Assembly (NCBI GenBank): GCA_003527885.1
Contig: DPWB01000100.1
Span: forward strand, 1-12,891
Direction: 5' to 3'
DNA from: Candidatus Competibacteraceae bacterium
GTDB taxonomy: Bacteria > Pseudomonadota > Gammaproteobacteria > Competibacterales > Competibacteraceae
Length of the DNA: 12,891 nt
This document shows positions 1 to 12,891 of this stretch, one piece after another (within the stretch, counting starts at the first letter, position 1; the number at the start of each line of letters is the position of its first letter). Below the pieces are notes generated by a model. It did no database searches and was not told where the DNA came from. It worked only from the letters and a program-made list of their open reading frames with translations. The translations under genes were made by a program, and so were the position numbers.

Positions 1-102
1 GTCTGTCACATGTGTTTCATGTCTTTTTTTTTTTTTCAAGCAGAAGACGGCATACGAGATCTAGTACGGTCTCGTGGGCTCGGAGATGTGTATAAGAGAC
101 AG
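1..102. other. Illumina Nextera P7/i7 adapter (sequencing artefact)
   Basis: Not genomic. Positions 37-60 are the 24-nt Illumina P7 oligo. Positions 61-68 (CTAGTACG) match the Nextera N702 i7 index in adapter orientation. Positions 69-83 are the read-2 transposase overhang, and 84-102 are the 19-bp Tn5 mosaic end (AGATGTGTATAAGAGACAG). A run of 13 T at 24-36 sits directly before P7, like the poly-T linker of flow-cell oligos; positions 1-23 are unassigned junk. Any reading frame starting before 103 carries the adapter-derived peptide QAEDGIRD and must be trimmed. Confidence 0.98.
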
Positions 103-324
103 GTGCGTAGCGCCCTGGAAAGCGCGGGCGTCGGCTGGAGCGTGTGGGATTATGCGGATTTCTTTGGAATTGCCACGGCGACGGGCAACACGAGTTCAAC
201 CGCCGATGGGGCGGTCATCCCTGGCGATTCGCAAAATCCCGCGCGCCTGCTCGACGCCGGCAGCGTGGCCGCGTTGGTCATGGACGTTCCGCCGCCGGGG
301 TTGTTGCGCCTTGTCGAGCGGTGA
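103..324 (+). CDS. Glycoside hydrolase family 5 (cellulase-like), C-terminal fragment
   Basis: Only the last 73 residues are present; the 5' part is missing because the contig begins here, fused to the adapter. The frame continues from the adapter mosaic end and stops at TGA 322-324. What is seen: a segment reading ALESAGVGWSVWDYADFFGI close to its start, followed by a Gly/Ala/Pro-rich tail. In clan GH-A family 5 enzymes, a late W-x-V-W-D/E-Y block followed by FG(I/L) forms the last barrel strand and a substrate-binding tryptophan. The catalytic glutamates would lie in the missing part. Hydrolases of this family are often found beside exopolysaccharide export genes, where they trim the polymer, so the position next to a Wza-type gene fits. 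Family assignment rests on one motif and is moderate. Confidence 0.6.
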   Translation: MRSALESAGVGWSVWDYADFFGIATATGNTSSTADGAVIPGDSQNPARLLDAGSVAALVMDVPPPGLLRLVER

Positions 325-363
325 GAAATGCGAGTGCGGGAGGCTGGTGCTAAAGCGCGGATT

Positions 364-382
364 CCGCCGGATTTGCCGGCGG
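364..382. other. GC-rich hairpin after the GH5 fragment
   Basis: CCGCCGG (364-370) and CCGGCGG (376-382) form a perfect 7-bp stem with a 5-base loop, 40 bases after the GH5 stop. A second GC-rich palindrome (CGCCGG-C-CCGGCG) follows shortly after. Neither is followed by a T tract, so an intrinsic terminator is not supported. The 325-445 gap shows nothing else clear. Confidence 0.3.
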
Positions 383-445
383 GGACCGAAACGCCGCCGG
401 CCCGGCGCTTCCTGGCCGGTCCAAGGGTGTAAAATCTGAGCCGCC

Positions 446-796
446 ATGATGATCGACCTGCATCGAATCCTAACCGGATGGGTGGCGCTGCTTGTAGCGG
501 GAGGCGTTCTAGTAGGGCCGGGCGCGGCCGTCGCCGCTTGCCAGAGCGACAGCGATTGTAAGCCGGGACTGCGTTGCCTGTTCGCCCGCGAGCGTCCGCA
601 AGGGGTATGCGCCAGTTGGTCGCCTTCCCTGGAGCCGATCTCCAAACCCGTGCAGCCGTCGGCGCCCGCGAGCCAATCGGTGCCCTTGAGCCAGCGGGGC
701 GGCGTCGGTTTCCCCTGTCAGTTTACCCAGGATTGTCTGCCGCGCTTTGCCTGTTTCAAGCTCGGCGCTCGCCTGGAAGGACAATGTTTTCGATAG
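446..796 (+). CDS. Small secreted protein with two Cys-x5-Cys-x5-Cys-x10-Cys repeats
   Basis: A 116-aa protein whose family I do not recognise. Residues 1-30 look like a signal peptide: hydrophobic stretch 12-28 followed by Ala-rich AAVAA. The mature part has eight cysteines in two copies of the same spacing, C32-x5-C38-x5-C44-x10-C55 and C91-x5-C97-x5-C103-x10-C114. Both copies keep D-C-x-P and G-x-C. They are joined by a Pro/Ser/Gln-rich linker (about 58-85). Each repeat probably folds as a small disulfide knot in the periplasm or outside the cell. VAAC at 29-32 could also be read as a weak lipobox, but C32 belongs to the repeat pattern. A second ATG directly follows the first (449); no strong Shine-Dalgarno separates them. 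The gene lies between a GH5 fragment and the convergent export lipoprotein gene. Function unknown. Confidence 0.7.
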   Translation: MMIDLHRILTGWVALLVAGGVLVGPGAAVAACQSDSDCKPGLRCLFARERPQGVCASWSPSLEPISKPVQPSAPASQSVPLSQRGGVGFPCQFTQDCLPRFACFKLGARLEGQCFR

Positions 797-797
797 A

Positions 798-814
798 GCG
801 GTGATCGACACCGC
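798..814. terminator. Weak hairpin between convergent genes
   Basis: GCGGTG (798-803) and CACCGC (809-814) form a perfect 6-bp stem with loop ATCGA, two bases after the stop of the Cys-rich gene and 15 bases from the stop of the convergent lipoprotein gene. The place suits a bidirectional terminator, but there is no T tract on either side, so the assignment is weak. Confidence 0.25.
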
Positions 815-829
815 AGACCACCGATCAGG

Positions 830-1543
830 CTACAGATTTGGGGTGACATCACGGTTGATGGTGTAGCTGAAGCCGCTTGAAAGGGCGAGATTGTTGTAAA
901 TCAGTTGCTGGAGCCAGAGGTTGACCTCGGCGAGGTTGGAGCGCGGCACGAAAATCATATCGAAACGCCGCAGCGGCACGTCCTGTTCGTCGCCGCCCTC
1001 GATGATCCGCCGCACGTTCACCACTTTCAGCATCGGCTTGCCTTGACGGGTGCGACGGAGCAGGATCACTCGGTCCATGCGGGCGGTTTCGCGGAAACCG
1101 CCCGCTTCCAGCACCCCTTCCAGCACGCCCATGCGGTGCGCCAGTTTGAGGACGCCGGCCCGCTGGACTTCGCCGCCGACATAGATGATCTCGGAGCTGA
1201 ACATGCGGGGGACCACGATCGCTTCCGGGTGGCGAAACTCGGTGGCGTAACGCTGGCGCAACTCCTCGGCGATATCGCCGGGCGTGCGGTCCAGCACCTT
1301 GACCGAGCCGATCAACGACAGATGGATCAAGCCATCCGGCGCGACGATCACGCGGTCGCTGAACTCCGGGTTATAAATCAGCTTGACATCCAGCTCGTCG
1401 CCCGGCAGGAAACCGTAGTCGGGAAGCTCGTCGCGCCAGGCCTCGAAGCCGAGCGACCGCTGTTCTTCGGGGCGGAGCGGGGAGACGCAAGCGCTGGCCA
1501 ACAGGCAGCAGAGCAGGGTCAGGATGCGAACGTGTTGGGACAT
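830..1543 (-). CDS. Polysaccharide export outer-membrane lipoprotein (Wza family)
   Basis: A 237-aa protein. The N-terminus is a lipoprotein signal with lipobox L-A-S-A-C (C19 the lipidated residue). Residues about 41-112 match the polysaccharide export domain (Y-G-F-x-PGDELDVK, then V-x-PDG-x-I-x-L-x-x-I-G-x-V, then P-E-x-I-V-V). Residues about 117-175 match an SLBB-type domain (YVGGEVxxxGV, then LEAGGF). The last part (about 208-228) contains a hydrophobic helix (VNLWLQQLIYNNL), consistent with the C-terminal outer-membrane helix of this family. At 237 aa it is much shorter than E. coli Wza (about 380 aa) and resembles the short GumB/EpsA-like forms. In this family the protein forms the export channel for capsule or exopolysaccharide. 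It is transcribed away from the Wzz gene and should work with it. The gene symbol is left empty because naming varies between loci. Confidence 0.9.
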   Translation of the reverse strand: MSQHVRILTLLCCLLASACVSPLRPEEQRSLGFEAWRDELPDYGFLPGDELDVKLIYNPEFSDRVIVAPDGLIHLSLIGSVKVLDRTPGDIAEELRQRYATEFRHPEAIVVPRMFSSEIIYVGGEVQRAGVLKLAHRMGVLEGVLEAGGFRETARMDRVILLRRTRQGKPMLKVVNVRRIIEGGDEQDVPLRRFDMIFVPRSNLAEVNLWLQQLIYNNLALSSGFSYTINRDVTPNL

Positions 1544-1582
1544 TTGTAAGGCTGTCGGTTGCTTTGGCGTTTATTCTTTAAG

Positions 1583-1610
1583 ATTATGCGATATTCTGAC
1601 ATCTGGCCAA
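1583..1610 (-). promoter_or_regulatory. Candidate sigma70 promoter for the export lipoprotein gene
   Basis: Read on the minus strand, TTGGCC (1610-1605) and CATAAT (1588-1583) are separated by 16 bases, placing transcription start about 30 bases before the ATG at 1543. The -10 box matches consensus at 5 of 6 positions and the -35 at 4 of 6. The region is also AT-rich compared with the genes. No equally good match was found on the plus strand for the Wzz operon. Confidence 0.35.
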
Positions 1611-1622
1611 TGGAAGGGAACA

Positions 1623-1655
1623 ATGGATTATTTGTCAACGAGTAATTTCGCATGA
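1623..1655 (+). CDS. Possible 10-aa leader ORF overlapping the Wzz start
   Basis: ATG at 1623 is preceded by a strong Shine-Dalgarno stretch (GGAAGGGA, 1612-1619) at close to ideal spacing. It reads MDYLSTSNFA and stops at TGA 1653-1655. That stop overlaps the Wzz start codon (1652-1654) as ATGA. The Wzz ATG itself has only a poor ribosome site (ACGAG). The layout is what translational coupling through re-initiation would look like: ribosomes load at the leader and pass on to Wzz. The peptide has no run of one amino acid that would suggest classical attenuation. It could still be a chance ORF. Confidence 0.4.
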   Translation: MDYLSTSNFA

Positions 1656-3298
1656 GCTCCCCCGAACCCGCTAGCGACGCGGGCCAGCGCGGGGGCAACG
1701 GGCCGCGCCTGACCCCGCTGGCGCCGCACGTTGCCTCCCGTCATACCTTGCGCGATGTCCTGATCGTCATTTTTCGCGAACGCCGCCTGATTATCTTGAC
1801 CTTCAGTCTCATTTTGGCGGTCGGCCTGCTGGCGTCCCTCAAGCTGGGCATGACCTACACCGCCGAATCGCGCCTGCTGGTGCTGCCCAGCCGCGATTAC
1901 GTGATGCGCCAGGATGTGGGCGAAACCGGCGTCAACATGGCGCTGGGCGACGATCGGATCGTGCGCTCCGAAACCGAGATTTTCAACAACTCCCAGTTGG
2001 TCGAGCGCGTCGTCGAGGATGTCGGGCTGGAACGGCTTTATCCCGATATCGCCGCCGGTGCCGGGAATCAAGGGTCCTTGCTGCTGCGCGGCTGGCGCGC
2101 GCTCACGGGTTTTTTCAGGACCCCTGAAACGGGGGAGGCGGGCAAGGGACCCGGCGTCGAGCCGCTGACCGAGCAGGAGCGCAAGCGGCTCAATCAGGCG
2201 GTGGTGCGCTTCATCTCCAAGCTGGAGGTGTTGCCGGTCAAGGATTCCAGCGTGATTCACCTGACCTTCTCGCACCCCGACCCCGCCATCGCCGCCGATG
2301 CGCTCAACCGCTTGGTTCAGGCTTACCTGGAACAGCGCTACGAGGTGTTCGCGCTGTCCCGTTCCCAGGTCTTTACCCAGCAGCGCGACAATTTCTCCCA
2401 CCGGCTGGGCAAGGCCGAGCAGGAGTTGGAGGCGTTCAAGCTGAAAAACGACTTCAGCGCCTTCGCCGACCAGAAAACGATGGTGTTGCGCCAGCAGGCG
2501 GAGATCCAGAACGACAAGATGGATACCGGCACGCGCCTGCGGGAAATCGAAGGGCGGCTGGCGGCGATCCGCGAGCAAATGACCAGCGTTCCCAAGGATA
2601 TCGCGCTGTACGAGGAAAGCGGCCAGCAAGACGCCCGCGACACCGCCCGCGCCACCTTGGTGACGCTGGAAGCCCGCCGCAACGAGCTGCTGACCAAGTT
2701 CAGCGAAACCAGCCGCTTCATCACCGATCTGGACCACCAAATCGCCAAATTGCGCGCCATCATCAGCGGTACGCCGCCCAAGGAGTCGATCAGCCGCCGC
2801 AGCGGCCGCAACCCGCTCTACGACGAACTGGGGACCGAACAGGTCCGCCGCGAGAACGAAGCCGCCGCGCTGCGGGCGCGGCAAAAGGCGCTCGACGGGC
2901 AACTGGCGCGGATCACCGAACGGCTGGGAGCGTTCGACCGGCTGGAGCGCGATTTCAACACGCTGATGCTGCAACGCACCTTGCTGGAGAAAAACTTACA
3001 GATTTACGCGCAGAAAGCGGAAGAGGCGTTGATTCAGGAAGAGCTGGACCGGCAGAAAACCGCCAACGTGCGGGTTATCGAGCAGGCGCAAATCCCGCGC
3101 GAGGGCAAAAGCTTGCGGGTGATGGTGTTAGGGCTAGCGCTGGTGGGCGGGCTGGTGGCGGCGCTGGCGCTGGCTTTTTTGAAGGATTTTTTCCGCGAAG
3201 TGCTGATCTCGCCGGAAGACACCGAGCGGGTGTTGGGTTTGCCGGTGCTGGTGGCGGTGCCGCTGAAAACCATGCCGGCGCGTCCGGCCCGCGCCTGA
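1652..3298 (+). CDS. Wzz/GumC-type polysaccharide co-polymerase without kinase domain
   Basis: A 548-aa inner-membrane protein. After a short cytoplasmic N-terminus, transmembrane helix 1 spans about 46-66 and helix 2 about 490-510. Between them lies a long periplasmic region: an alpha/beta Wzz domain, then extended coiled coils (about 230-320 and 390-470, rich in E, R, Q, K, L). The family's proline motif before helix 2 is present as VRVIEQAQIP. After helix 2 come SPEDTERVLGLPVLVAVP (about 520-537) and a short basic tail. In PCP-2a proteins this segment joins directly to a BY-kinase domain, but here the chain ends, as in GumC/PCP-type forms that work with a separate kinase. The protein sets polymer length and contacts the export lipoprotein. 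An in-frame TAA at 1643 makes ATG 1652 the first possible start. First gene of the Wzz-Wzx-Wzy operon. Confidence 0.92.
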   Translation: MSSPEPASDAGQRGGNGPRLTPLAPHVASRHTLRDVLIVIFRERRLIILTFSLILAVGLLASLKLGMTYTAESRLLVLPSRDYVMRQDVGETGVNMALGDDRIVRSETEIFNNSQLVERVVEDVGLERLYPDIAAGAGNQGSLLLRGWRALTGFFRTPETGEAGKGPGVEPLTEQERKRLNQAVVRFISKLEVLPVKDSSVIHLTFSHPDPAIAADALNRLVQAYLEQRYEVFALSRSQVFTQQRDNFSHRLGKAEQELEAFKLKNDFSAFADQKTMVLRQQAEIQNDKMDTGTRLREIEGRLAAIREQMTSVPKDIALYEESGQQDARDTARATLVTLEARRNELLTKFSETSRFITDLDHQIAKLRAIISGTPPKESISRRSGRNPLYDELGTEQVRRENEAAALRARQKALDGQLARITERLGAFDRLERDFNTLMLQRTLLEKNLQIYAQKAEEALIQEELDRQKTANVRVIEQAQIPREGKSLRVMVLGLALVGGLVAALALAFLKDFFREVLISPEDTERVLGLPVLVAVPLKTMPARPARA

Positions 3299-3316
3299 GC
3301 GAACGCGCGGGCCACC

Positions 3317-4759
3317 ATGGCGCCACCCGGACTCCAGCGCCTGCTGGCAGGCTATCTGCCGGTCAATCTGTTGCAGGCCGCGATCACCCTGGGGGCGGTC
3401 ATGGTGTTCAGCCGGCTGCTGACGCCGGCGGAGTACGGCCATTATGCGCTGGCCACCACCTTGATGCTCTGGGTCCAAACCCTGCTGTTCTATTGGCTGC
3501 AAACCGGCATCTCCCGCTTCCACGATACCGCCCGCGACGCCGGGCGGCTGCCGCGCTTGCTGGCCACCGCGTACGTTGCCGCCATCCTGATGGTGATACT
3601 GCTCGGCGGAATCGGACTGATCGTCGCGGAATTCAGCGCCTATCGCCCTTTGATCCTGGCGGGGTTGGCGGCGCTGCTGGCGCGGTCGCTGTTCGCGGTC
3701 GGACTGGATCTTCACCGGGCGGCGCATCGGGTGCGCCGTTACGCTTGGCTGGAAGGCGTGCAGTACCTGCTCAGCCTGTTGCTGGGCGTGCTTTTCGCCA
3801 TCTATTTGGATTGGGGCGCGCTCGCGCCTTTGCTGGGGTTGGCGCTGGGCAATGTTACGGTCTTGCTGGCGGATATCCCTTATCTGGCGCGCCAAACGGG
3901 GGGCCTGGCTTGGTCGCGAGAAGATTTGCGGCTGCTGGCGGGTTATGGCTTGCCGTTGACCTTTTCCTTCTTGTTCGGGCTGGTGGTGGCGGGGTCCGAC
4001 CGTTTCTTCATCGCGTGGTTGATGGATGAAAGCGCGGTGGGCGTCTACGCTGTCGCCTATGCCCTGGCCGACCGCACCTTGACCATACTGTTCAATTGGG
4101 TGGGGATGGCGACCGTGCCGCTGGCGTTTTCCGCGCTGGCCAGCGGCGGGGAAAACGCGGCGCGCCAAGTCATGAGCGCTGCCGCCAAAAGCTTGATTCT
4201 CTTGGCTTTACCTGCGGCGGCCGGTCTGGCCGCCACCGCCGCACCGCTGGCGGCGGTGGTGGTCGGTCCCGATTTTCGGGCCACCACGGCCCACATCGTG
4301 CCCTGGATCGCGCTGGCGGGCCTGTTGAACGGCGCGATGGTCCATTACGCCGCCCATGCCTTTCTGATCGCCCGCCGCACCCGAGCTTTACTGGGGACCA
4401 CCGTGCTGGCGGCGGCGGTCAACGTCGCTCTCAACCTGCTGTTGATTCCGACCTGGGGTCTGAACGGGGCCATTGCCGCCACCATCGTCGCCTATGCGGT
4501 CGGGTTGGGCGCGCGCTTGCTGCTGATGCGCGCGCGTTTTCCCATTCCTCTGGCCTTACCCGATTTGATGAAGGGCCTCGCTGCTTGCGCGCTGATGTGG
4601 GCGGCGCTGGCCGCGATTCCCTGGCCGCCGACTTGGGTGGGCCTGCTGGCCGCCGTGGCGACCGGCGTGGCGTGCTACGGGGCGGCGGCCCTAATCTTGA
4701 ATGTTTCCGGCGCGCGGCGCTGGGTGCCGGCGCGCTGGTTCGGCCGGAGTCCGAGCTGA
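3317..4759 (+). CDS. Wzx-type oligosaccharide flippase (MOP/PST superfamily)
   Basis: A 480-aa, very hydrophobic protein with about 12-14 predicted membrane helices along its length and few long loops, the usual size for the polysaccharide transporter family. The N-terminus has the typical pattern of a first helix followed by FSRLLTPAEYGHYALA (about 35-50), a hallmark of these flippases (S-R-x-L-x-P-x-E-Y/F-G). Mid-protein GSDRFFIAWLMDESAVGVYAVAY-like sequence (about 228-250) matches the start of the second half of the bundle. The family flips undecaprenyl-pyrophosphate-linked repeat units across the inner membrane. The start follows the Wzz stop by 18 bases with only a weak ribosome site. 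The stop overlaps the next start (TGATG at 4757-4761), so the next gene is translationally coupled. Confidence 0.88.
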   Translation: MAPPGLQRLLAGYLPVNLLQAAITLGAVMVFSRLLTPAEYGHYALATTLMLWVQTLLFYWLQTGISRFHDTARDAGRLPRLLATAYVAAILMVILLGGIGLIVAEFSAYRPLILAGLAALLARSLFAVGLDLHRAAHRVRRYAWLEGVQYLLSLLLGVLFAIYLDWGALAPLLGLALGNVTVLLADIPYLARQTGGLAWSREDLRLLAGYGLPLTFSFLFGLVVAGSDRFFIAWLMDESAVGVYAVAYALADRTLTILFNWVGMATVPLAFSALASGGENAARQVMSAAAKSLILLALPAAAGLAATAAPLAAVVVGPDFRATTAHIVPWIALAGLLNGAMVHYAAHAFLIARRTRALLGTTVLAAAVNVALNLLLIPTWGLNGAIAATIVAYAVGLGARLLLMRARFPIPLALPDLMKGLAACALMWAALAAIPWPPTWVGLLAAVATGVACYGAAALILNVSGARRWVPARWFGRSPS

Positions 4760-6186
4760 TGGAACGGCGCGTTCCGCCGGCGCGGCGCTCCGCTTTCCTG
4801 CTGCGCGCGCCGGCGGCGGCGGCGGCCGGCCGGACCGGACGGGCGCACGATGAACGCTGGCGCTGGCCTTTGGCGTTGGCTTGCTTGGGCTTGATCCTTT
4901 ATCTGCTGTTGTCCGACAACCTGCTGGTCACGCTCGGCATTCCCTACAACGTTCCGCGCGGCGCGTTCCCGTTCAAGATCCATCCGGGAACCTATTGCAT
5001 TGCGCTGGGCTTCGTCCTGCTGTTGCGCGGCAATCCCTGGCAGCGGGTCGGCAAATTGTTTCAGCTGGCCCCGGCCCTCGGCAGCTTGGCGTCGGTGACG
5101 GCGGTGATCATGGTCTATGCCCTGGTTCGGTTCGGCGCGTCCGGCAGCGGCTTTTTCATCGACACGCTGCTGGCTCCGGCCTTGCTGGGGCTGATCGTGC
5201 TCCAGGCGCCGGTCGAGCGGCGGCCGGTGGTTTTTTGGATCGTGTTGGCGCTGTCGGCGCTCAATGCGGTGATCGGGATCGGCGAAGCCGCCGTCGGCAA
5301 CCGGCTGGTTCCCTACATGGCCGGCGACAAGCTGTTGGTCGAGGGGTTTTTCCGCGCCACCGCGCTGGGCGGGCATCCCCTGACCAACGCGCTCCGCACG
5401 GCGGTGCTGATGTTCGTCGTGCTGGTGTTGCCCGCTCGCTACCGGTTGACCTTGATCCCGCTGTTCGCCATTGCCCTGCTGGCGTTCGGCAGTCGCTCGG
5501 CGCTGGCGACCAGCCTGCTGCTGCTGGGCGTGTGGGGGGCGTTCTCCTTCATGCGGGGCATCGTCGCCCGGCATTTCGATTTGCGGTTGGCGTTGGGTCT
5601 GCCGCTGTTGGTGTTGGTGTTGCCGGCGGCGGTCGGCGCGTTGGGCCTGAGTTTGGGGCTGGGCGAGCGCGTCTTGCGGGAGTTTTACTGGGATGACAGC
5701 GCCCAGTCGCGGTTGCTGGCGTTTCACATCTTCAGCTTCCCGTCGCTGGAAGAGTTGTTGTGGGGGATGGGGCCGGCGCGCATCGAGTGGGCGCTGGATC
5801 ATCTCAAAAGCTCCACCACCCTGAACGATATCGAAAATTTTTGGATTTTGCTGTTGTTGCAGGTCGGTATCATCCCCTTCATCTTCCTGGCCGGTTCGCT
5901 GCTGGCGGCCTTGTTCGGACTGGTTTGGCAGGGGCCGACTCCACTGCGGCTGGCGGCGCTGAATTTCCTGATCCTCGCCTCCGGCAGCAACTCGCTGGCC
6001 ACCAAAACCCAAAGTCTGGCGATTTTGGTGGCCATGCTGACCGGGGCGGCGGCCATCGCCCGACGCGAGGCGGCAGCTCGGCCAGCCGACCCTCAACAAA
6101 CGCCCGAGGAAACACCGGCCGGCCCACCCCGGCGCAGCGGCTTCCAGCTGCTGCACCGCGCCCATCTGAACGGGAACAGTCGCTGA
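4759..6186 (+). CDS. Wzy-type polysaccharide polymerase / O-antigen ligase-like protein
   Basis: A 475-aa membrane protein with about 10-12 helices. The frame is open upstream to 4096, but that part only shadows the flippase in another frame. ATG 4759, overlapping the flippase stop and preceded by GGAG at 4746-4749, is the credible start. Residues 1-35 are a basic, Ala-rich cytoplasmic tail, and helices begin at about 37. Segments seen: FRATALGGHPLTNALRTAVL in the middle and FGSRSALATSLLLLGV after it. A G-H-P-x-x-x-A block followed by an S-R-S/G-A block is typical of O-antigen ligase/polymerase (PF04932-like) and VpsF-like proteins. A large periplasmic loop precedes the last helices (LLWGMGPARIEW region). 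It would join repeat units in the periplasm. I cannot separate VpsF-type from other Wzy proteins by eye. Confidence 0.8.
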   Translation: MERRVPPARRSAFLLRAPAAAAAGRTGRAHDERWRWPLALACLGLILYLLLSDNLLVTLGIPYNVPRGAFPFKIHPGTYCIALGFVLLLRGNPWQRVGKLFQLAPALGSLASVTAVIMVYALVRFGASGSGFFIDTLLAPALLGLIVLQAPVERRPVVFWIVLALSALNAVIGIGEAAVGNRLVPYMAGDKLLVEGFFRATALGGHPLTNALRTAVLMFVVLVLPARYRLTLIPLFAIALLAFGSRSALATSLLLLGVWGAFSFMRGIVARHFDLRLALGLPLLVLVLPAAVGALGLSLGLGERVLREFYWDDSAQSRLLAFHIFSFPSLEELLWGMGPARIEWALDHLKSSTTLNDIENFWILLLLQVGIIPFIFLAGSLLAALFGLVWQGPTPLRLAALNFLILASGSNSLATKTQSLAILVAMLTGAAAIARREAAARPADPQQTPEETPAGPPRRSGFQLLHRAHLNGNSR

Positions 6187-6203
6187 GCCGCCGCGAACCG
6201 GCG

Positions 6204-6905
6204 TCAGTCGATCTTGTTGTCCCACATATTGAACAGGCCGACCTCCATCCGGTATTCGCCGTCCAGCGTGACGACGGTCAATTCCAGCGGCGTGTGCCGG
6301 GCCGCCAGCAAGCCGTCATCGCCGATGTAAAGGTCGATCACCTCGTGGCGGGGCGGGTTGAAGCCGGCGATGTTACCGTCCGCTTTGTTGATGCGCCGGC
6401 CGTTGTGGATGACCTGCAACAGGGGATAGGAACTGTTGGGCAGCGTATCCCAGCGCCGGGACGGCTGGCCCTTGGTGCGCAGGATCAGCGCCGTGATGAA
6501 ATAACCGCCGCCGCGCCCGATATAAAAGCCCAAATTGCGGGCGTTCAGGCGCAGCCAAGTGTCGGGGACGCCATCGCCGATGAAGGAGCGGGTGGCGGAC
6601 GCCAAATCGCGACCGATTTCACGCCCCACCAGATAGACGAAAGGAGGCGGCGGATCCTGCTGGTCGTCGCGGCCCACGAAGGAGTGCGAGCGCCGGGGCG
6701 GGTCGGGGCTGAGTTCGCCGCGCACGTCTTCATGGACGTTCAAGGGTTGGCGCGGGAGGTTGTGCGGCACGTTCTGGTAGGTGGGGACTTCCTCCACGAA
6801 GTGATCCACGATTTGCGCCGCCGTCAAAGCGGGATAGACGATCAGGCCGCCGAGCAGCGCGCCCGTCCCGCAAAACCGCCGCAACGGCTCCGTTAGGTGC
6901 CTCAT
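6204..6905 (-). CDS. Unrecognised secreted protein coupled to the kinase-like gene
   Basis: A 233-aa protein with no family I recognise. The frame is open upstream to 7160, but that part is Arg/Gly-rich shadow sequence inside the kinase-like gene. ATG 6905-6903 overlaps the kinase-like stop (6904-6902) as ATGA and begins with a good signal peptide: basic MRHLTEPLRRF, hydrophobic GALLGGLIVYPALTAA, likely cut near residue 30. The mature protein starts with a Pro/Asp/Arg-rich, probably flexible part (about 38-90). It continues with a compact alternating polar/hydrophobic region (about 112-233) containing GFYIGRGGGYFITALI, an HNGRRINKADG segment and a C-terminus ending in FNMWDNKID, which suggests a beta-rich domain. 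No catalytic motif is evident. Its place as last gene of the deacetylase/kinase-like operon points to a periplasmic or exported role in exopolysaccharide assembly. Confidence 0.8.
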   Translation of the reverse strand: MRHLTEPLRRFCGTGALLGGLIVYPALTAAQIVDHFVEEVPTYQNVPHNLPRQPLNVHEDVRGELSPDPPRRSHSFVGRDDQQDPPPPFVYLVGREIGRDLASATRSFIGDGVPDTWLRLNARNLGFYIGRGGGYFITALILRTKGQPSRRWDTLPNSSYPLLQVIHNGRRINKADGNIAGFNPPRHEVIDLYIGDDGLLAARHTPLELTVVTLDGEYRMEVGLFNMWDNKID

Positions 6906-7660
6906 ACCCGGCTCAGAAAACTGTAGACCCACTTCGGAATGTAGAAACGGCGTTTGTTCAGGATCGCACCCACGATCGGCGCACCCTGGCCCATCAGTTT
7001 TTCGTGGAGTTCCACGATCACCGGCACCCGGCTGGTTTCGGCCGCCACGACCAAAATGACCGCATCCATCGCCCCGCACATGACGATGCCGTCGAAAGAG
7101 TGGGCGGCCGGAGGGGCATCGACCACCGTCAGCATGACTGAGCGCCGCAAATCGGTCCAAAAATCCGGCTGGTTGACGACGCGCGGCGCGTCGTGCAAAT
7201 CCCGGACGGGTTGGCTGACGATGAGTGAAGTGTCGCCCAACTGGTGAAAAGTCAGGGGCAGGGCGCGTTCCTCGGTTTCGCTCCGGTGCGACGAGCGGAG
7301 CAAGCGGCCGAAATCGACCCCCAGCGTTAGCGGCGGTCCCGGAGCGATGGCCGGATCGTCCTGGGCTTTGCTTTGGAAAAAGTTATAGTGCTCGCCGCGC
7401 CGCCAGTCGAAATCGAGCAGTAGCACGCGACCGTCCACGTATTGGGAGGCCATCAGCGCGAAATCTCGCGCCAGGGTGGAAACGCCTTCGCCGGGATTGG
7501 CGCTGATGAATTCGACCACCAGCCCTTCGCCGGGAACGAAAACCGGATTCATCAGGCTGAACAAGCGTTTGGTTTCGGAGGCGTTGAAAAATAGGCCGTT
7601 GAATCCCCTGCGGTCGGAACCCTGCGGTGAGGGGGCGGAAGAAACGGGCGGTGTCGGCAT
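6902..7660 (-). CDS. Stand-alone BY-kinase-like P-loop protein with degenerate Walker A
   Basis: A 252-aa cytoplasmic protein of the CpsD/BY-kinase (MinD/ParA-related) fold. Walker A is at 53-62 as S-A-N-P-G-E-G-V-S-T, where active members read GEGKST; the lysine is replaced by V60 (GTT, 7483-7481). Walker A' is at 80-86 (LLLDFDW, normally LLIDxDxR) and Walker B at 178-184 (TVVDAPP, normally IIDTPP). The family ending G-A-I-L-N-K-R-R-F-Y-I-P is present at 231-242. There is no C-terminal tyrosine cluster; the protein ends YIPKWVYSFLSRV. Lys to Val needs changes at three codon positions from AAA or AAG, so a single read error cannot explain it. Such a protein may bind nucleotide poorly or not hydrolyse it, acting as a regulatory partner of the kinase-less Wzz at 1652. 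ATG 7660 has AGGGA about six bases upstream and lies 24 bases after the deacetylase stop. Confidence 0.85.
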   Translation of the reverse strand: MPTPPVSSAPSPQGSDRRGFNGLFFNASETKRLFSLMNPVFVPGEGLVVEFISANPGEGVSTLARDFALMASQYVDGRVLLLDFDWRRGEHYNFFQSKAQDDPAIAPGPPLTLGVDFGRLLRSSHRSETEERALPLTFHQLGDTSLIVSQPVRDLHDAPRVVNQPDFWTDLRRSVMLTVVDAPPAAHSFDGIVMCGAMDAVILVVAAETSRVPVIVELHEKLMGQGAPIVGAILNKRRFYIPKWVYSFLSRV

Positions 7661-7684
7661 GAACGGTCCCTGGTTATCGGCAAA

Positions 7685-8743
7685 CTACTCGTAAGCGGGC
7701 GCGAGCGCGGCTCTAGCCCCGCTCAAACGAATCCGCAAGTCCTCCGCCGTATCGCTGCCGCCGAAGGGGATGCGCGGTAAGGCGTGCACGCCAGCGCCGG
7801 CGCGCAGCGGGCCGCCGTAGGCGAGGACGGCGCTGGCAAAACCGCAGTCCCGCGCGAGCGTCGTCACCGCCTGATCCACCGCTGGCGCATCGCCGTAAGG
7901 ATAAGCAAAATGGCGGATGGCCCGCTCCAGTTGGGTTTCCAGCCGCTGCCGGCTTTGGGTCATTTCCAGCCGCGCCTCGGCTTGCGGCAGGTCGCGCAGC
8001 GCCGGATGGGTGACCGTATGCGCTCCGAATTCGACCAGGCCGCTGGCGGCCATCTCCCGTATCATGTCCCACGTCATCATCCGTTCCCGGTCGATCGACC
8101 TAAAATCGATCTGGTATATTTGTTCCAGTTGCGACAGCGCCTTGGCGCGGGCGGCCGGGGCGGCTTTCCGTAACAGGTCGCACGCCTGCTGAAAAGCGGC
8201 GTCCCGTTCCGTCGTCGTGGCGGCGGAAAACGAATAATGCCGGTCCGCCAAAGACATGTCGAGCGTCGGATGATGTTGGAGAACGGCTTCGATGCCGTGC
8301 CACCAGGCCGGAGCTTCGCCATCGATGAAGCCGGTGGTGACGTAAATCGTGGCTGGCGCGGCCAATTGGCGCAACAAGGGATAGAGCAGTTGGTAATTAT
8401 CCCGGTAGCCGTCGTCGAAGGTCAGACAGGCGAAGCGGGGGCCGGCGCGCGGTGCGGCCAGACGCTCCAGGGCGACATCGAGCGACACCAACTCGTAGCC
8501 TTCCGAGCGCAAAGTCTCCACGATGGCGGTCAGTTGGCGGCCGGTGATGGTCAGGCCCGGATTGCCTTGCCAATCCGCCGTCTCGGACTCCTTAAGGCCA
8601 TGCAGCATCAGGATCGCGCCGCGCCCGCCGCACAGGCGTCGCACCCAGCGATCAACTCCCAATGCGGTTATCATGCTCCGCCAGCCCATTCCACTCGCGG
8701 CCGCCTGACGATCAGTGCTCTTGCGGGAGCCGCTTGTCTTCAT
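7685..8743 (-). CDS. Polysaccharide deacetylase (carbohydrate esterase family 4, NodB-like)
   Basis: A 352-aa protein. NodB motifs seen: motif 1 T-F-D-D-G-Y at 108-113 (D110 likely catalytic base, D111 metal ligand); motif 2 H-T-V-T-H-P at 242-247 (H242 and H246 metal ligands); motif 3 F-A-Y-P-Y-G at 279-284. An N-terminal ILMLHGL segment (44-50) takes the place of the ILxYHxV usual in this group. A helical insertion (about 160-225) separates motifs 1 and 2. These enzymes remove N- or O-acetyl groups from polysaccharides. No clear signal peptide is seen in the first 45 residues, so it may act on lipid-linked units in the cytoplasm or use a non-classical anchor. Start 8743 has a poor ribosome site; M19 (8689) and M24 (8674) are alternatives. 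First gene of the minus-strand operon with the kinase-like gene. Confidence 0.9.
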   Translation of the reverse strand: MKTSGSRKSTDRQAAASGMGWRSMITALGVDRWVRRLCGGRGAILMLHGLKESETADWQGNPGLTITGRQLTAIVETLRSEGYELVSLDVALERLAAPRAGPRFACLTFDDGYRDNYQLLYPLLRQLAAPATIYVTTGFIDGEAPAWWHGIEAVLQHHPTLDMSLADRHYSFSAATTTERDAAFQQACDLLRKAAPAARAKALSQLEQIYQIDFRSIDRERMMTWDMIREMAASGLVEFGAHTVTHPALRDLPQAEARLEMTQSRQRLETQLERAIRHFAYPYGDAPAVDQAVTTLARDCGFASAVLAYGGPLRAGAGVHALPRIPFGGSDTAEDLRIRLSGARAALAPAYE

Positions 8744-8747
8744 TTAT

Positions 8748-8776
8748 TTAACATCTTTGGTAAATAAGGTTATATT
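8748..8776 (+). promoter_or_regulatory. Sigma70-like promoter for the GT4/ATP-grasp operon
   Basis: TTAACA (8748-8753) and TATATT (8771-8776) each match the sigma70 consensus at 5 of 6 positions and are separated by exactly 17 bases. The surrounding 80-base gap between the divergent deacetylase and GT4 genes is markedly AT-rich. Transcription would start near 8783, leaving a leader of about 40 bases. The -35 box lies just outside the deacetylase start codon, so the two promoters probably overlap. Confidence 0.6.
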
Positions 8777-8823
8777 CTATCGGCTTTCCAACGGCCTAGT
8801 ATAGCTCTGCTGTTTTTTAATTT

Positions 8824-9936
8824 ATGAAAAGTGTCGCCTTTTACCTACCCAATCTCGCCGCTGGCGGCGCCGAACGGACCTTTTTACGGCTGGCGGCCGG
8901 CTTTAAGGAGCGGGGTTGCCCGGTGCGACTGGTGGTGGATCGGCCCGAGGGCGGGCTGCTGGAGACCGTGCAAAACAGCGGCTTGGCGCTGGATGTTCTG
9001 CACGCTGGCCGGACCCTGAGCGCGTTTCCCAAGCTGGGCGCCTGGTTGCGGCACAATACGCCCGATGTGTTGCTGTCGGCGATCACGCATAACAACCTCG
9101 TCGCCGTGTGGGCGCGGGCGCTGGCCCGGACCGCCACGCGGGTCGTCGTTTCCGAACATACCGTGCTTTCGGCGCAAGCCGCGTCCCAGCCCGGCTGGCA
9201 ATACCGCGTGCTGGCGCCGCTGTGTCGTTGGACTTATCCGCAAGCGGCGGCCATCGTGGTGGTTTCCGCTGGCGCGGCCGACGATCTGGCGCGTTACGCG
9301 GGTTTGTCGCGCGGCGCGATGAACGTGATTCCCAACCCGGTGGTCACGCCCGATTACCCGCCACGCATGGCCGCGCCCAGCCCACACCCCTGGCTGACGG
9401 ACGGCGGTCCGCCGGTGTTCGTCGCCGCTGGCCGGCTGGTGCCGCTCAAGGATTTTGCCACGTTGTTACAGGCGTTCGCCATCGTCCGACGCCGCGCCGG
9501 CGCCCGCTTGCTGGTCATCGGCGAAGGGCCGGAACGGGAGGCGCTGCTCGCCCTGCGCGCCCGGCTGGGATTGGAGGAAGCGGTGGAGTTGCCCGGTTTT
9601 TGTCCCGACCCGCTGCCGCTGTTCGCCCGCGCCGCCGCAGTGGTGGTCAGCTCGCAATTTGAAGGCTTTGGCCTGACGCTGGTCGAGGCGCTGGCCTGCG
9701 GCACGCCCGTCGTCAGCACGGACTGTCCGACCGGTCCCGCCGAGATCCTCGCGCGCGGCGTGTATGGCCGGCTGGTTTTGGTGGGGGATGCGGAGGGGTT
9801 GGCCGCCGCCATGTTGGAGACGCTGGCGGATTCTCCCGACCGCGACCGCCTGCGCCAGCGCGCCCAAGACTACACACTGGCGGCGGTGGTCGACCGGTAC
9901 CTGGAACTGTTCGACCGCTTGAAACCACCGCGATGA
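8824..9936 (+). CDS. GT4-family glycosyltransferase
   Basis: A 370-aa GT-B fold retaining glycosyltransferase. The N-terminal acceptor domain has the GGAER loop at 14-18. The C-terminal domain has the phosphate-binding R204 and K209 (AAGRLVPLKD) and the E-x7-E motif at E280 and E288 (FEGFGLTLVEAL), which bind the nucleotide-sugar donor. D-C-P-T-G-P-A-E-I-L at 300-309 is a signature of the PglA/PglH/WbnK-like branch, many of which transfer GalNAc or related hexoses. The donor cannot be fixed by eye. The enzyme should act at the inner face of the membrane, adding a sugar to the lipid-linked repeat unit. No Shine-Dalgarno is visible; the start is preceded by a U-rich stretch (TTTTTTAATTT). It overlaps the next gene by four bases (ATGA, 9933-9936). 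Confidence 0.9.
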   Translation: MKSVAFYLPNLAAGGAERTFLRLAAGFKERGCPVRLVVDRPEGGLLETVQNSGLALDVLHAGRTLSAFPKLGAWLRHNTPDVLLSAITHNNLVAVWARALARTATRVVVSEHTVLSAQAASQPGWQYRVLAPLCRWTYPQAAAIVVVSAGAADDLARYAGLSRGAMNVIPNPVVTPDYPPRMAAPSPHPWLTDGGPPVFVAAGRLVPLKDFATLLQAFAIVRRRAGARLLVIGEGPEREALLALRARLGLEEAVELPGFCPDPLPLFARAAAVVVSSQFEGFGLTLVEALACGTPVVSTDCPTGPAEILARGVYGRLVLVGDAEGLAAAMLETLADSPDRDRLRQRAQDYTLAAVVDRYLELFDRLKPPR

Positions 9937-11102
9937 ACGCTTCCCGTGTCGCTGCCGTGGTCGTCGGCGTCGAAGTCAACGGCCTGGGCATCCTGCGCAG
10001 TCTGGCGTTGGGCGATGTGCCGCTGATCGCCGCCGACGCCGATCCGCGCCAGCCCGCCATGCGCACCCGGCACGGCCGCAAGCTGGGGTTGCGCGCCTTG
10101 ACAGGTTCTGAACTGGTGGAGGATTTGCTCGCCCTGGCGCGCAGCCTGGACCAACGCCCGGTACTGTTCCTCACACGCGACGATACGGTGGCTACCGTCT
10201 CGGCGCACCGCGAAACCTTGGCCCAGCATTATCGCTTCCAGTTACCGCCGCCGGCTATCACCACCGCGCTGAACACCAAGGCCGGTTTTCAGGCACTCGC
10301 CCAACAGGGCAACTTTCCCGTTCCGCCCGGCGTCCATGTCACCGGTGAGGCCGATTTGCCGGAGCTGGCCGCGTTGCCCTACCCCTGCGCGCTCAAGCCC
10401 GGCGAGCGCAACGCGGCTTACGACCGCCAGTTCGCCAAGGCGTATCGAATCGACTCGTTTACCGAGGCGAAAGACCTTTGCCGGCGGATTCTGCCGGTGA
10501 TGCCCGATTTGCTCGTGCAGCAATGGATCGAGGGCGGAGACGACGCGATTTACTTCGTGCTGCAATACCATCCGGGCGGCGGTCGGTCGCCGCTGTCGTT
10601 CACCGGGCGTAAGATTCGCTCGTGGCCGGCCTGCATCGGCGTCGCGGCCCGCTGTGGTCCCGCGCCGGAAATGGCCGCCGAACTGGAACCGTTGACAACG
10701 CGATTTTTTCAGTCTTGTCAGTTGGAAGGCTGGGCCGCCATGGAATACAAGCGCGATGCCCGCGACGGCCGTTTCGTGATGATCGAGCCTTCGGCGGGGC
10801 GTTCCGAAATGCTGGGTGAAATCGCCGTGCTGAACGGCGTCAATCTGCCGCTGGCCGCTTATCACTGGCTGATTGGCGAGGAGCCGCCGCCGCCGACAAC
10901 GCGGCCCCGCACCCTGTGGCGGCGCGACTGGCTGGCCGATACGGCCGCCGCGCACGCCCAGCCGGAGATCGGGCTTTGGTCGCCGGCGGATGCCCCCGTA
11001 ATGGACGGCTTCTGGCGGCGCGACGATCCGCTGCCGGCGCTGTACGCTTACCCGCAGCGCGCGCTGGGCGCGGTGTGGCGGCGGCTGGCTGGTCGGAGCT
11101 AA
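9933..11102 (+). CDS. ATP-grasp family carboxylate-amine ligase-like protein
   Basis: A 389-aa protein. The N-terminal domain (1-110) has a Rossmann-like start (AAVVVGVEVNGLGILRSLAL) and FLTRDD at 79-84. The central ATP-grasp part has the nucleotide-binding lysine in ALKPGERN (K155), the hinge LLVQQWIEGGDDAIYF (193-208) and the metal-binding acidic residues E271 (MEYKRD) and E285. The latter sits in MIEPSAGRSEM, a variant of the EPTVGRTD motif of ATP-grasp proteins in polysaccharide loci. ATP-grasp enzymes join a carboxylate to an amine through an acyl phosphate, so this one may add an amino acid or other amide to a uronic-acid or amino-sugar residue of the polymer. Substrate unknown. Translationally coupled to the GT4 gene. 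Confidence 0.85.
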   Translation: MNASRVAAVVVGVEVNGLGILRSLALGDVPLIAADADPRQPAMRTRHGRKLGLRALTGSELVEDLLALARSLDQRPVLFLTRDDTVATVSAHRETLAQHYRFQLPPPAITTALNTKAGFQALAQQGNFPVPPGVHVTGEADLPELAALPYPCALKPGERNAAYDRQFAKAYRIDSFTEAKDLCRRILPVMPDLLVQQWIEGGDDAIYFVLQYHPGGGRSPLSFTGRKIRSWPACIGVAARCGPAPEMAAELEPLTTRFFQSCQLEGWAAMEYKRDARDGRFVMIEPSAGRSEMLGEIAVLNGVNLPLAAYHWLIGEEPPPPTTRPRTLWRRDWLADTAAAHAQPEIGLWSPADAPVMDGFWRRDDPLPALYAYPQRALGAVWRRLAGRS

Positions 11103-11103
11103 A

Positions 11104-11116
11104 CGCTTCCGAAGCG
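11104..11116. terminator. Short hairpin after the ATP-grasp gene
   Basis: CGCTT-CCG-AAGCG forms a 5-bp stem directly after the TAA at 11100-11102. No T tract follows, so it is at best a weak terminator. Confidence 0.2.
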
Positions 11117-11183
11117 GTCCACCCCGTCAGCGCCCACCGGCTCACGGCGTCAAGGGGCAGGCGCAATAGCTTGTCGGACACGA

Positions 11184-11189
11184 TATAAT
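11184..11189 (+). promoter_or_regulatory. Perfect -10 box (TATAAT) upstream of the membrane fusion gene
   Basis: TATAAT at 11184-11189 is a full match to the sigma70 -10 consensus, in an otherwise GC-rich neighbourhood. No good -35 box stands 16-18 bases upstream (GCGCAA region), and TTGTCG at 11171 is too close. The promoter would therefore be weak or need an activator. Transcription would start about 70 bases before the ATG at 11264, so the hairpin at 11201-11236 would lie in the leader. Confidence 0.35.
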
Positions 11190-11200
11190 GCTCAATTTTT

Positions 11201-11236
11201 AGGAAGTTGCTAGGCTTCAATAGCGGCTAACTTTCT
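11201..11236. other. Bulged inverted repeat in the leader of the membrane fusion gene
   Basis: AGGAAGTT-GCTA (11201-11212) pairs with TAGC (11221-11224) and AACTTTCT (11229-11236), giving a 12-bp stem with one G-T pair, a 4-base bulge (GGCT) and an 8-base loop. It is preceded by five T and followed by AAAA, so it is not a plus-strand terminator. It may be an mRNA leader structure or a protein-binding site. Downstream TCGATTAATTGA (11248-11259) is a near-palindrome. Confidence 0.35.
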
Positions 11237-11263
11237 AAAATTATCGCTCGATTAATTGACTCC

Positions 11264-12442
11264 ATGCCTGAACTACCTGCCCGCCGTTCCTTTTCGCTGG
11301 TTCTCGTTCTGTCCGCGCTCTCGCTAATCGTGGCTGCGGCGTGGTTTTTCAACCGCTCGACCTCGCAAACCCCGGAACCGCCAAAGAGCACCGAAAACCT
11401 TACAGGACCCACCAGTGCCCCCCGCCCGGCGCTCGCCATCACCGCCGAAACGCCGCGACGGACACCGCTTGCCGAACAGCTTGCGGCCAACGGCGACATC
11501 GCCGCGTGGCAGGAGGCGAGCATCGGCTCGGATGTCAACGGCCTGCGTCTGGCGGAGGTACGGGCCGATGTCGGTGATCGGGTCCAGAAAGGCCAAGTGC
11601 TGGCCGTGTTCGACGCCGATCTGGTGGAAGCCGACCGGGCGCAAGCCCGCGCCGGTCTAGCTGAAGCCGAGGCCGCCTTGATCGACGCCAGCGGCAATGC
11701 CGACCGGGCGCGAGCGATTGCCCCCAGCGGCGCGATGAGTAAGCAACAGGTCAATCAGTACCTGACCGCTGAAAAGACCGCACAGGCACGAGTCAAAGCT
11801 GCTCAAGCCTTGGTGGAAAGCCAGGATTTACGGCTTAAACATACGCAGGTGCTCGCGCCGGATGCGGGCGTGATCTCAGTGCGCAGTGCGACGGTGGGTG
11901 CGGTCGCTGCCCCTGGCATGGAGTTGTTTCGGCTGATGTTGCGCGGGCGGCTGGAATGGCGGGCGGAGGTGACGGCGGCGGATTTGACCCGGCTCAAAAT
12001 CGGTCTGCGCGCGCGTGTCACCTTACCGGGTGGGGGTGAGGTGCAAGGCACCCTGCGCCAACTCGCCCCGACGGTCGATCCCAAAACCCGCTATGCCATC
12101 GCCTACGTCGATCTACCCGCCGGTTCGGCGGCGCGGGCCGGGATGTTCGCGCAAGGCATTTTTGAATTGGCCCAGACCGAGGCGCTGACCGTGCCGCAGG
12201 AGGCGGTGGTGATGCGTGATGGGTTCGCCCATGTGCTGATCGTCGGCGCGGATCGGCGGGTGAGTCTTAAGCGGGTGCAAACTGGGCGGATGGTGGAAAA
12301 TCGCATGGAGATCAGGGAGGGTCTGCTGCCAGAGCAAACGGTGGCGGTGCGCGGCGCGGCGTTCCTCAACGATGGGGATTTGGTGCAGGTCAGCGCGGAG
12401 GGTTCCACAACGAACTCTGTTGGCGTTCCTGTGGCAGATTAG
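11264..12442 (+). CDS. Periplasmic adaptor (membrane fusion protein) of an RND-type efflux system
   Basis: A 392-aa protein. The N-terminus has one hydrophobic segment (about 10-29), a membrane anchor or signal. Order of domains seen: first half of the barrel-sandwich (lipoyl-like) domain at about 85-120 (VRADVGDRVQKGQVLAVFD); an alpha-helical hairpin about 120-192 rich in Ala, Glu and Gln; the second lipoyl half at about 193-222 (LAPDAGVISVRSATVGAVAA); a beta-barrel domain about 228-300; and a membrane-proximal domain to about 380. This is the standard plan and length of HlyD/AcrA-type adaptors linking an inner-membrane pump to an outer-membrane channel. The partner RND pump normally follows at once; here the next 110 bases hold no gene and unrelated small ORFs follow. 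The ribosome site is weak. It is probably a separate transcription unit from the polysaccharide genes. Confidence 0.9.
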   Translation: MPELPARRSFSLVLVLSALSLIVAAAWFFNRSTSQTPEPPKSTENLTGPTSAPRPALAITAETPRRTPLAEQLAANGDIAAWQEASIGSDVNGLRLAEVRADVGDRVQKGQVLAVFDADLVEADRAQARAGLAEAEAALIDASGNADRARAIAPSGAMSKQQVNQYLTAEKTAQARVKAAQALVESQDLRLKHTQVLAPDAGVISVRSATVGAVAAPGMELFRLMLRGRLEWRAEVTAADLTRLKIGLRARVTLPGGGEVQGTLRQLAPTVDPKTRYAIAYVDLPAGSAARAGMFAQGIFELAQTEALTVPQEAVVMRDGFAHVLIVGADRRVSLKRVQTGRMVENRMEIREGLLPEQTVAVRGAAFLNDGDLVQVSAEGSTTNSVGVPVAD

Positions 12443-12555
12443 TAGCGGTGGGAATAGCTGGAAACAGGCCAATCTTTAGCAGCTCTTATGAGGGCAGAAC
12501 CAAACGATTTCGCTAGACTGGTTGTCCTCGTCAGGCTTGCATTGGAGAAGTTAAA

Positions 12556-12672
12556 ATGGCTAAGGCCTACGAAACCATTGTCCAAGGGCTAAAAGAAGCT
12601 ATCTCTCTCAACGAAGGCAAACCGATTGCGGCTAAGGTTCATCGTTCAGAAAAATTGATGTTGCCGTATTAG
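12556..12672 (+). pseudogene. Remnant of a HigA-like XRE antitoxin gene (N-terminal part)
   Basis: ATG 12556 has a strong Shine-Dalgarno (GGAGAAG, 12544-12550) at ideal spacing and encodes 38 residues beginning MAKAYETIVQGLKEAISLNE. A start of the type M-x-K-A-Y-x-x-I-x-x-GL-x-EA-I is common in small XRE-family (HigA/NadS-like) antitoxins, whose helix-turn-helix follows after about 40 residues. Here the frame stops at TAG 12670-12672. Adding one A in the AAAAA tract at 12650-12654 would give SEKIDVAVL, resembling the K-I-D-V-A-x-I-R lead-in to the helix-turn-helix, but that frame also soon diverges and ends. So the gene looks frameshifted and truncated. No toxin gene lies upstream within 110 bases. 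Recognition is from memory of the family and is tentative. Confidence 0.4.
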
Positions 12673-12693
12673 GTGGCCATGGAGAGTATTTGT

Positions 12694-12816
12694 ATGTCAC
12701 TTGATCTTGTTCTTTTTATCGCCGGCGTATTATTGTCTGCTGTCTTCTCGTGGTTTTTTACGCATATATATGGTTTTGTTGCACAAATGTACGGGGTCCG
12801 CATATCAAGGCGATGA
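12694..12816 (+). pseudogene. 5' end of a membrane-anchored gene, apparently interrupted by an IS element
   Basis: ATG 12694 has a strong Shine-Dalgarno (GGAGAG, 12681-12686; 7-base gap). The first 26 codons give one transmembrane helix, LVLFIAGVLLSAVFSWFFTHIY. From codon 27 (12772) the sequence matches an insertion-sequence end (GGTTTTGTTGCACAAAT), so the remaining 14 residues to TGA 12814-12816 are read from the element. The original product was probably longer: a short N-terminal helix followed by a cytoplasmic domain. Such anchors occur in many accessory and defence proteins, but nothing of the domain remains here, so no function is proposed. If the IS reading is wrong, this would be a complete 40-aa single-pass membrane protein. 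Confidence 0.5.
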
Positions 12817-12865
12817 ACGAACAGAGGCGGAAGTATCGGGTCACGAACTGGCGTACCTATAACGC
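12772..12865 (+). mobile_element. Left end of an IS5-family insertion sequence, cut by the contig end
   Basis: The element is proposed to start at GGTTTTGTTGCACAAAT (12772-12788), which resembles the GGCTTTGTTGCACAAA-type terminal inverted repeats of IS5-family elements, about 40 bases before a transposase start. The other end lies outside the contig, so neither the inverted-repeat partner nor the target duplication can be seen. The flanking CATATATAT (12762-12771) would hold the target duplication. A multicopy element here would explain the assembly break. Confidence 0.6.
12813..12865 (+). CDS. IS5-family transposase, N-terminal fragment
   Basis: ATG 12813 opens a frame reading MNEQRRKYRVTNWRTYN before the adapter begins at 12866. 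K-Y-x-V-T-N-W-x-x-Y-N is the highly typical start of IS5-family (IS903/IS1031-like) DDE transposases, which continue with a L-x-x-R-G-x-L-T-x-W segment not reached here. AAGG stands just two bases upstream, a short spacing. The start codon overlaps the stop of the interrupted upstream frame (ATGA), likely by chance of the insertion. The frame beyond 12865 is adapter and must be ignored. Confidence 0.72.
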
Positions 12866-12891
12866 CTGTCTCTTATACACATCTGACGCTG
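12866..12891. other. Nextera read-1 adapter, reverse complement (sequencing artefact)
   Basis: Positions 12866-12884 are the Tn5 mosaic end in reverse complement (CTGTCTCTTATACACATCT), followed by GACGCTG, the start of the reverse-complemented Nextera read-1 overhang. It is not genomic and marks read-through at the end of a library fragment. Confidence 0.97.

Follow-up and report, generated by a model that had tools for sequence, protein, structure and literature searches.

A predicted HfsB-type pseudokinase in an exopolysaccharide gene cluster of Competibacteraceae

How might a protein with the predicted fold of a bacterial tyrosine (BY) kinase, but without the lysine of its P-loop, take part in exopolysaccharide production? 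The question is raised by contig DPWB01000100.1 of a Candidatus Competibacteraceae bacterium (assembly GCA_003527885.1), positions 1 to 12,891 of which are referred to here as the window. We suggest that 6902..7660 encodes an HfsB-type BY pseudokinase, a stand-alone protein that probably docks on a kinase-less polysaccharide co-polymerase of class 2 (PCP-2) and organises its oligomer without phosphotransfer. The gene and its motifs are:

6902..7660, minus strand: BY-pseudokinase gene, HfsB-type, 252 amino acids, ATG start
7559..7579, minus strand: helix SETKRLF, residues 28-34, at the place of the kinase EX2RX2R motif, which is incomplete
7475..7492, minus strand: P-loop GEGVST, residues 57-62, with the Val60 codon GTT at 7481-7483
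7400..7423, minus strand: Walker A' LLLDFDWR, residues 80-87, with an intact pattern
7109..7132, minus strand: Walker B LTVVDAPP, residues 177-184, intact and matching Lys-bearing relatives
6905..6958, minus strand: C-terminus NKRRFYIPKWVYSFLSRV, where canonical kinases have a Tyr-rich tail

A P-loop without lysine

The first-pass annotation of this DNA described the Walker A motif as GEGVST rather than GEGKST, placed the codon GTT three substitutions from AAA or AAG, and noted the absence of a tyrosine cluster. Direct reading of residues 57-62, of codon 7481-7483 and of the C-terminus agrees on all three points; the protein ends in SFLSRV, and Y240 and Y246 are the only tyrosines close to the end. 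The same annotation treated the Walker A' sequence DFDW as an oddity, and this part did not stand, as LLLDFDWR retains the D-x-D-x-R pattern seen in Lys-bearing relatives, among them L085 (IDCDLR). The places aligned with EX2RX2R, a motif named for CapB (PMC3795738), are occupied by S28, K31 and F34. With the register shifted by one, E29 and R32 fit and S35 takes the third place, so that the motif is incomplete in both registers. Of the features of a canonical BY kinase, the protein has the fold in its predicted model, but not the P-loop Lys, the Tyr-rich tail or EX2RX2R. It is stand-alone, with neither the catalytic Lys nor the Tyr tail, as in a pseudokinase paired with a PCP-2, and a PCP that terminates shortly past its last hydrophobic segment, without a kinase domain, is encoded in the same cluster (1652-3298).

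Sequencing error or gene decay could be considered as the source of Val60, given that the genome is a draft and that adapter sequence lies at both ends of the window. However, Val is found at residue 60 in five other genomes, encoded by GTC in two (G001 and G002) and by GTA in three (G005, G009 and G010), and with the single GTT of the window the six genomes use GTT once, GTC twice and GTA three times. Values of dN/dS among the six are 0.13-0.37 (13 of 15 pairs computable), as expected under purifying selection. We thus reject sequencing error, and give an origin by error or decay a negligible probability; the initial view that Val60 is not a simple error holds. These data come from a search of 59 genomes, including the window's own, in which 10 matched and 6 matched strongly (own genome counted). 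There was no match in two of the five other genomes of the same genus, one of them 1.2 Mb in size and one 75% complete.

A broader set consists of 134 homologues, 38 from a first search and the remainder new ones among 120 listed of 1155. Residue 60 was read in 133 of these and is other than Lys in 131 (Thr in 103, Val in 27, Ser in one) and Lys in two, a ratio that is no population frequency because the queries were themselves non-Lys proteins. A family in which a non-Lys residue is kept alongside otherwise conserved motifs had been put forward as the mark of a real pseudokinase, and the homologues support such a family. The nearest homologue, from Competibacteraceae, is 94% identical to the window protein, and a tyrosine-kinase name is carried by 4 of the 38 first-search homologues.

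The lysine-free family

An alignment of 293 rows includes 254 non-Lys and 37 Lys rows, with two rows gapped at position 60 left out of the split. The rows were gathered with queries of known Lys state and include near-copies and duplicate genes (e.g., P0016/L020, L136/L141 and L097/L109). Because the rows share ancestry and some genes appear twice, and because a single Lys-bearing query supplied 30 of the 37 Lys rows, the following contrasts are descriptive only. A complete EX2RX2R is present in none of the 254 non-Lys rows and in 30 of the 37 Lys rows, whereas Arg at K+5 (Arg65 in the window protein) is present in 210 and none, respectively. Asn at K+6 occurs in 6 non-Lys versus 32 Lys rows, and at least two Tyr past the C-terminus of the family in none versus 24. 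Ser/Thr61 (248 of the 254 non-Lys rows), D83 (241), D85 (197) and D181 (249) are kept. Given that the Mg-site and Walker Asp residues are mostly retained, nucleotide binding without phosphotransfer is plausible in the non-Lys proteins.

Several rows do not conform to a clean rule. Five Lys rows (P0035, P0036, L091, CAN_L184 and CAN_L185) have fewer than three Tyr in the last 25 residues, although in CAN_L185 the Tyr residues are located further upstream. Conversely, nine non-Lys rows have at least four Tyr in the last 30 residues, none with two or more beyond the family C-terminus, and the 19 Pseudomonas-type rows have neither Lys nor Arg65. The EX2RX2R contrast also depends on how one helix is aligned; with a shift of one residue, 178 of the 254 non-Lys rows have Glu29 and 51 have Arg32. 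P0035, P0036 and L091 combine the P-loop Lys with an NKRRFYxP-type end and no Tyr tail, and it is possible that they are intermediates. The novelty here lies in describing the family more sharply within the present sample. Neither the Arg-K+5 signature nor the joint loss of EX2RX2R was found described in the accessible text of the literature examined on BY kinases and pseudokinases.

For phylogenetic analysis, 100 of the 293 rows were retained after thinning by identity and coverage (183 columns, P-loop columns removed). One branch, with support of 100/96, separates 64 non-Lys rows from the rest. The other 18 non-Lys rows, which include the Pseudomonas type, Planctomycetota and five fused forms, are grouped with the 18 Lys rows. 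In the best tree, the clade of the window protein (11 rows, 99/92) is placed as sister to the HfsB clade of Caulobacteraceae (19 rows, 100/90), with a joint support of 96/53 that is weak by SH-aLRT. This tree requires two changes of the Lys state, but a topology that unites every non-Lys row in a single clade was not rejected (p-AU 0.30). In a far-reaching scenario, most non-Lys proteins would belong to a single old side of the BY-kinase tree that lost P-loop Lys, Tyr tail and EX2RX2R together, gained a P-loop Arg-[Glu/Asp/Gln] signature, and may switch PCP assembly by nucleotide binding alone, without phosphorylation. As a whole, we consider this scenario doubtful.

Scanning the GTDB species genomes turned up 92 relatives, of which the best 80 were kept; position 60 is Lys in five of these, a gap in one and another residue in 74. 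The 74 non-Lys relatives span Pseudomonadota, Thermodesulfobacteriota, Myxococcota, Nitrospirota, Planctomycetota and others; one is from a metagenome-assembled genome labelled Thermoplasmatota, where contamination is possible. Of 66 pattern-matching stretches in viral contigs, none encodes a relative.

Gene cluster and comparison with HfsB

The pseudokinase gene is found among the following genes:

830..1543, minus strand: outer membrane polysaccharide export (OPX) protein, divergent from the PCP
1652..3298, plus strand: kinase-less PCP-2 of Wzz/GNVR type, 548 amino acids, with Wzz and GNVR matches just under the Pfam cut-offs; likely partner
3317..4759, plus strand: Wzx flippase, best NCBIfam match HfsF (315.7 bits, below the cut-off of 700)
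4759..6186, plus strand: putative Wzy polymerase, from position and hydrophobic segments only
6204..6905, minus strand: 233-residue protein, start overlapping the pseudokinase stop (ATGA)
7685..8743, minus strand: polysaccharide deacetylase (PF01522, 87.3 bits)
8824..9936, plus strand: GT4 glycosyltransferase
9933..11102, plus strand: ATP-grasp-like protein, weak match (24.8 bits, cut-off 218) and no Pfam match

With the pseudokinase between the 233-residue protein and the deacetylase, this order is identical in G001 and G002, and in G005 from the PCP onward, as determined by tblastn with the window proteins. G009 has the same order with the OPX gene turned, and in G010 the part from Wzy to GT4 is on a 10-kb contig. 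The longer frame that contains the putative Wzy has no Pfam match. The 233-residue protein is encoded directly downstream of the pseudokinase in loci of Competibacteraceae, Thiodictyon, Magnetococcales and Methylococcus. It has no Pfam or NCBIfam match, and its AlphaFold2 model is all-beta at low confidence (pLDDT 57.5, with the beta structure in the C-terminal part) and has no match in the PDB at E <=0.001.

Exact matches to the Nextera adapter are present at both ends of the window, at 84-102 (probably 37-102) and 12866-12884, and positions 37-83 resemble the Illumina P7 part. The peptide QAEDGIRD...GDVYKRQ is a false open reading frame product because of this adapter sequence. In homologue P0007, an adapter-like peptide is found at the start and again internally.

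The HfsB-position protein of Brevundimonas fluminis had matches at E <=0.001 in 108 of the 149 genomes of that species' family (only weak ones in G070, G100 and G103). We use the name HfsB here because of the family and because the gene lies next to one for an HfsA-like PCP, following the HfsA/HfsB pairing (PMC12004946) and the hfs gene order. We examined 48 entries (the 30 best and 18 picked down the ranking; 47 distinct genes), all 48 of which lack Lys and have Arg at K+5. Like the window protein, these are stand-alone proteins without a Tyr tail, most have a GEG[VTA]ST P-loop, and their clusters encode a kinase-less PCP, with OPX divergent from it where found. Among entries with longer flanks, a PCP is present in 18 of 18 and OPX is on the strand opposite the PCP in 14 of 18. 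The HfsB proteins are only 24-29% identical to the window protein (tblastn), and unlike it their C-terminal motif is not NKRRFYIP.

Most loci of the 74 non-Lys relatives also encode a PCP. In 48, a separate PCP match lies no more than about 2.3 kb away and on the same strand, in seven (L035, L046, L048, L055, L063, L066 and L067) the PCP is fused in frame, and in three it is on the opposite strand. A further fusion suggested by coordinates, in L024, was rejected, as the PCP match is in another frame.

Mode of action

EcpK and HfsB have been described as BY pseudokinases that act with a kinase-less PCP-2, in the pairs EcpK/EpsV and HfsB/HfsA, and a phosphorylation-independent subfamily was proposed (PMC12004946). 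The first-pass annotation raised the possibility of a non-catalytic partner, and the conserved non-Lys family with its kinase-less PCPs supports this; as it matches the published model, the idea is not new. EcpK, from the exopolysaccharide system of Myxococcus xanthus, is likewise stand-alone and paired with a kinase-less PCP-2. According to its published description (PMC12004946), however, EcpK has none of the three Walker motifs, whereas the window protein lacks only the Lys. The C-terminal domain of PslE (PDB 9v75 and 9v6l) has the aligned P-loop GEGVTF and an aligned RRF-x-x-P stretch, but is fused to its PCP; this domain was absent among the 50 matches listed. The 20 papers listed of 206 in a literature search included none on the kinase-like domain of PslE, and the accessible text of PMC6813494 does not contain the word kinase. 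The kinase domains of VpsO, Wzc and CapB share the predicted fold but belong to active kinases, which have the P-loop Lys and a Tyr tail (PMC12004946). EcpK or HfsB is also named in PMC12802240, PMC13001252 and PMC3798453. Among the titles listed, at most 20 per search and with most subscription papers outside the collection, none besides PMC12004946 was devoted to the BY-pseudokinase family.

We consider it most likely that the window pseudokinase binds the PCP-2 encoded at 1652-3298 by way of the latter's cytoplasmic C-terminal tail, and that it would stabilise or organise the oligomer of this PCP around Wzy and the OPX exporter. Control of the PCP would then proceed without phosphotransfer and without the Tyr-tail ratchet described in PMC11986026, which is impossible for a tail-less protein. 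Several observations weigh against this. The joint node of the window and HfsB clades is weak by SH-aLRT (96/53), and no PCP was detected in the flanking DNA examined of 16 of the 74 non-Lys loci. In the window, the PCP gene is about 3.6 kb from the pseudokinase gene and on the other strand, unlike hfsB, which directly follows hfsA. The conserved Mg-site and Walker Asp residues also exceed what a pure scaffold needs.

Those residues, conserved in the non-Lys rows as given above, could instead indicate an adaptor that binds Mg-nucleotide without using it for phosphotransfer, with the nucleotide state determining how firmly it holds the PCP. The K540M variant of E. coli Wzc is still able to bind ADP and Mg2+ and to form octamers (PMC8285477), so that nucleotide binding may survive the loss of just the P-loop Lys, and the reported absence of all Walker motifs in EcpK (PMC12004946) contrasts with the residues kept here. 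The same residues may serve folding alone, however, and we regard such gating as possible but unlikely. An active enzyme, in which a relocated Lys or an Arg such as Arg65 stands in for the P-loop Lys, would account for the restriction of Arg65 to non-Lys rows, but there is no Tyr tail to serve as phosphorylation target, EX2RX2R is never complete in these rows, and residue 65, more than one helix turn past the P-loop, probably points elsewhere; this seems very improbable. Hardly more probable is regulation in trans of a canonical BY kinase of the same genome. Contig C68 (L104:2701-5938) has separate OPX, PCP-like and BY-kinase genes, the PCP-like gene being assigned from position and sequence only. 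The kinase, with GEGKT and a Tyr-rich tail, scores above the TIGR01007 cut-off, and the possibility that inactive CapB1 is a pseudokinase with CapB2 as its target has been discussed (PMC3795738). However, the window pseudokinase comes with a PCP of its own, in a separate conserved cluster, and the authors of the EcpK study reason against any reliance on active BY kinases (PMC12004946).

Docking on a kinase-less PCP-2 is the reading we prefer. The finding is real and the main interpretation in the first-pass annotation is sound, but systems of this kind have been described before, in the holdfast and slime production of other bacteria. The signature of Arg at K+5, no EX2RX2R and no Tyr tail lets such proteins be told from true kinases, and the locus would extend the recently proposed phosphorylation-independent control of exopolysaccharide assembly to the Competibacteraceae.
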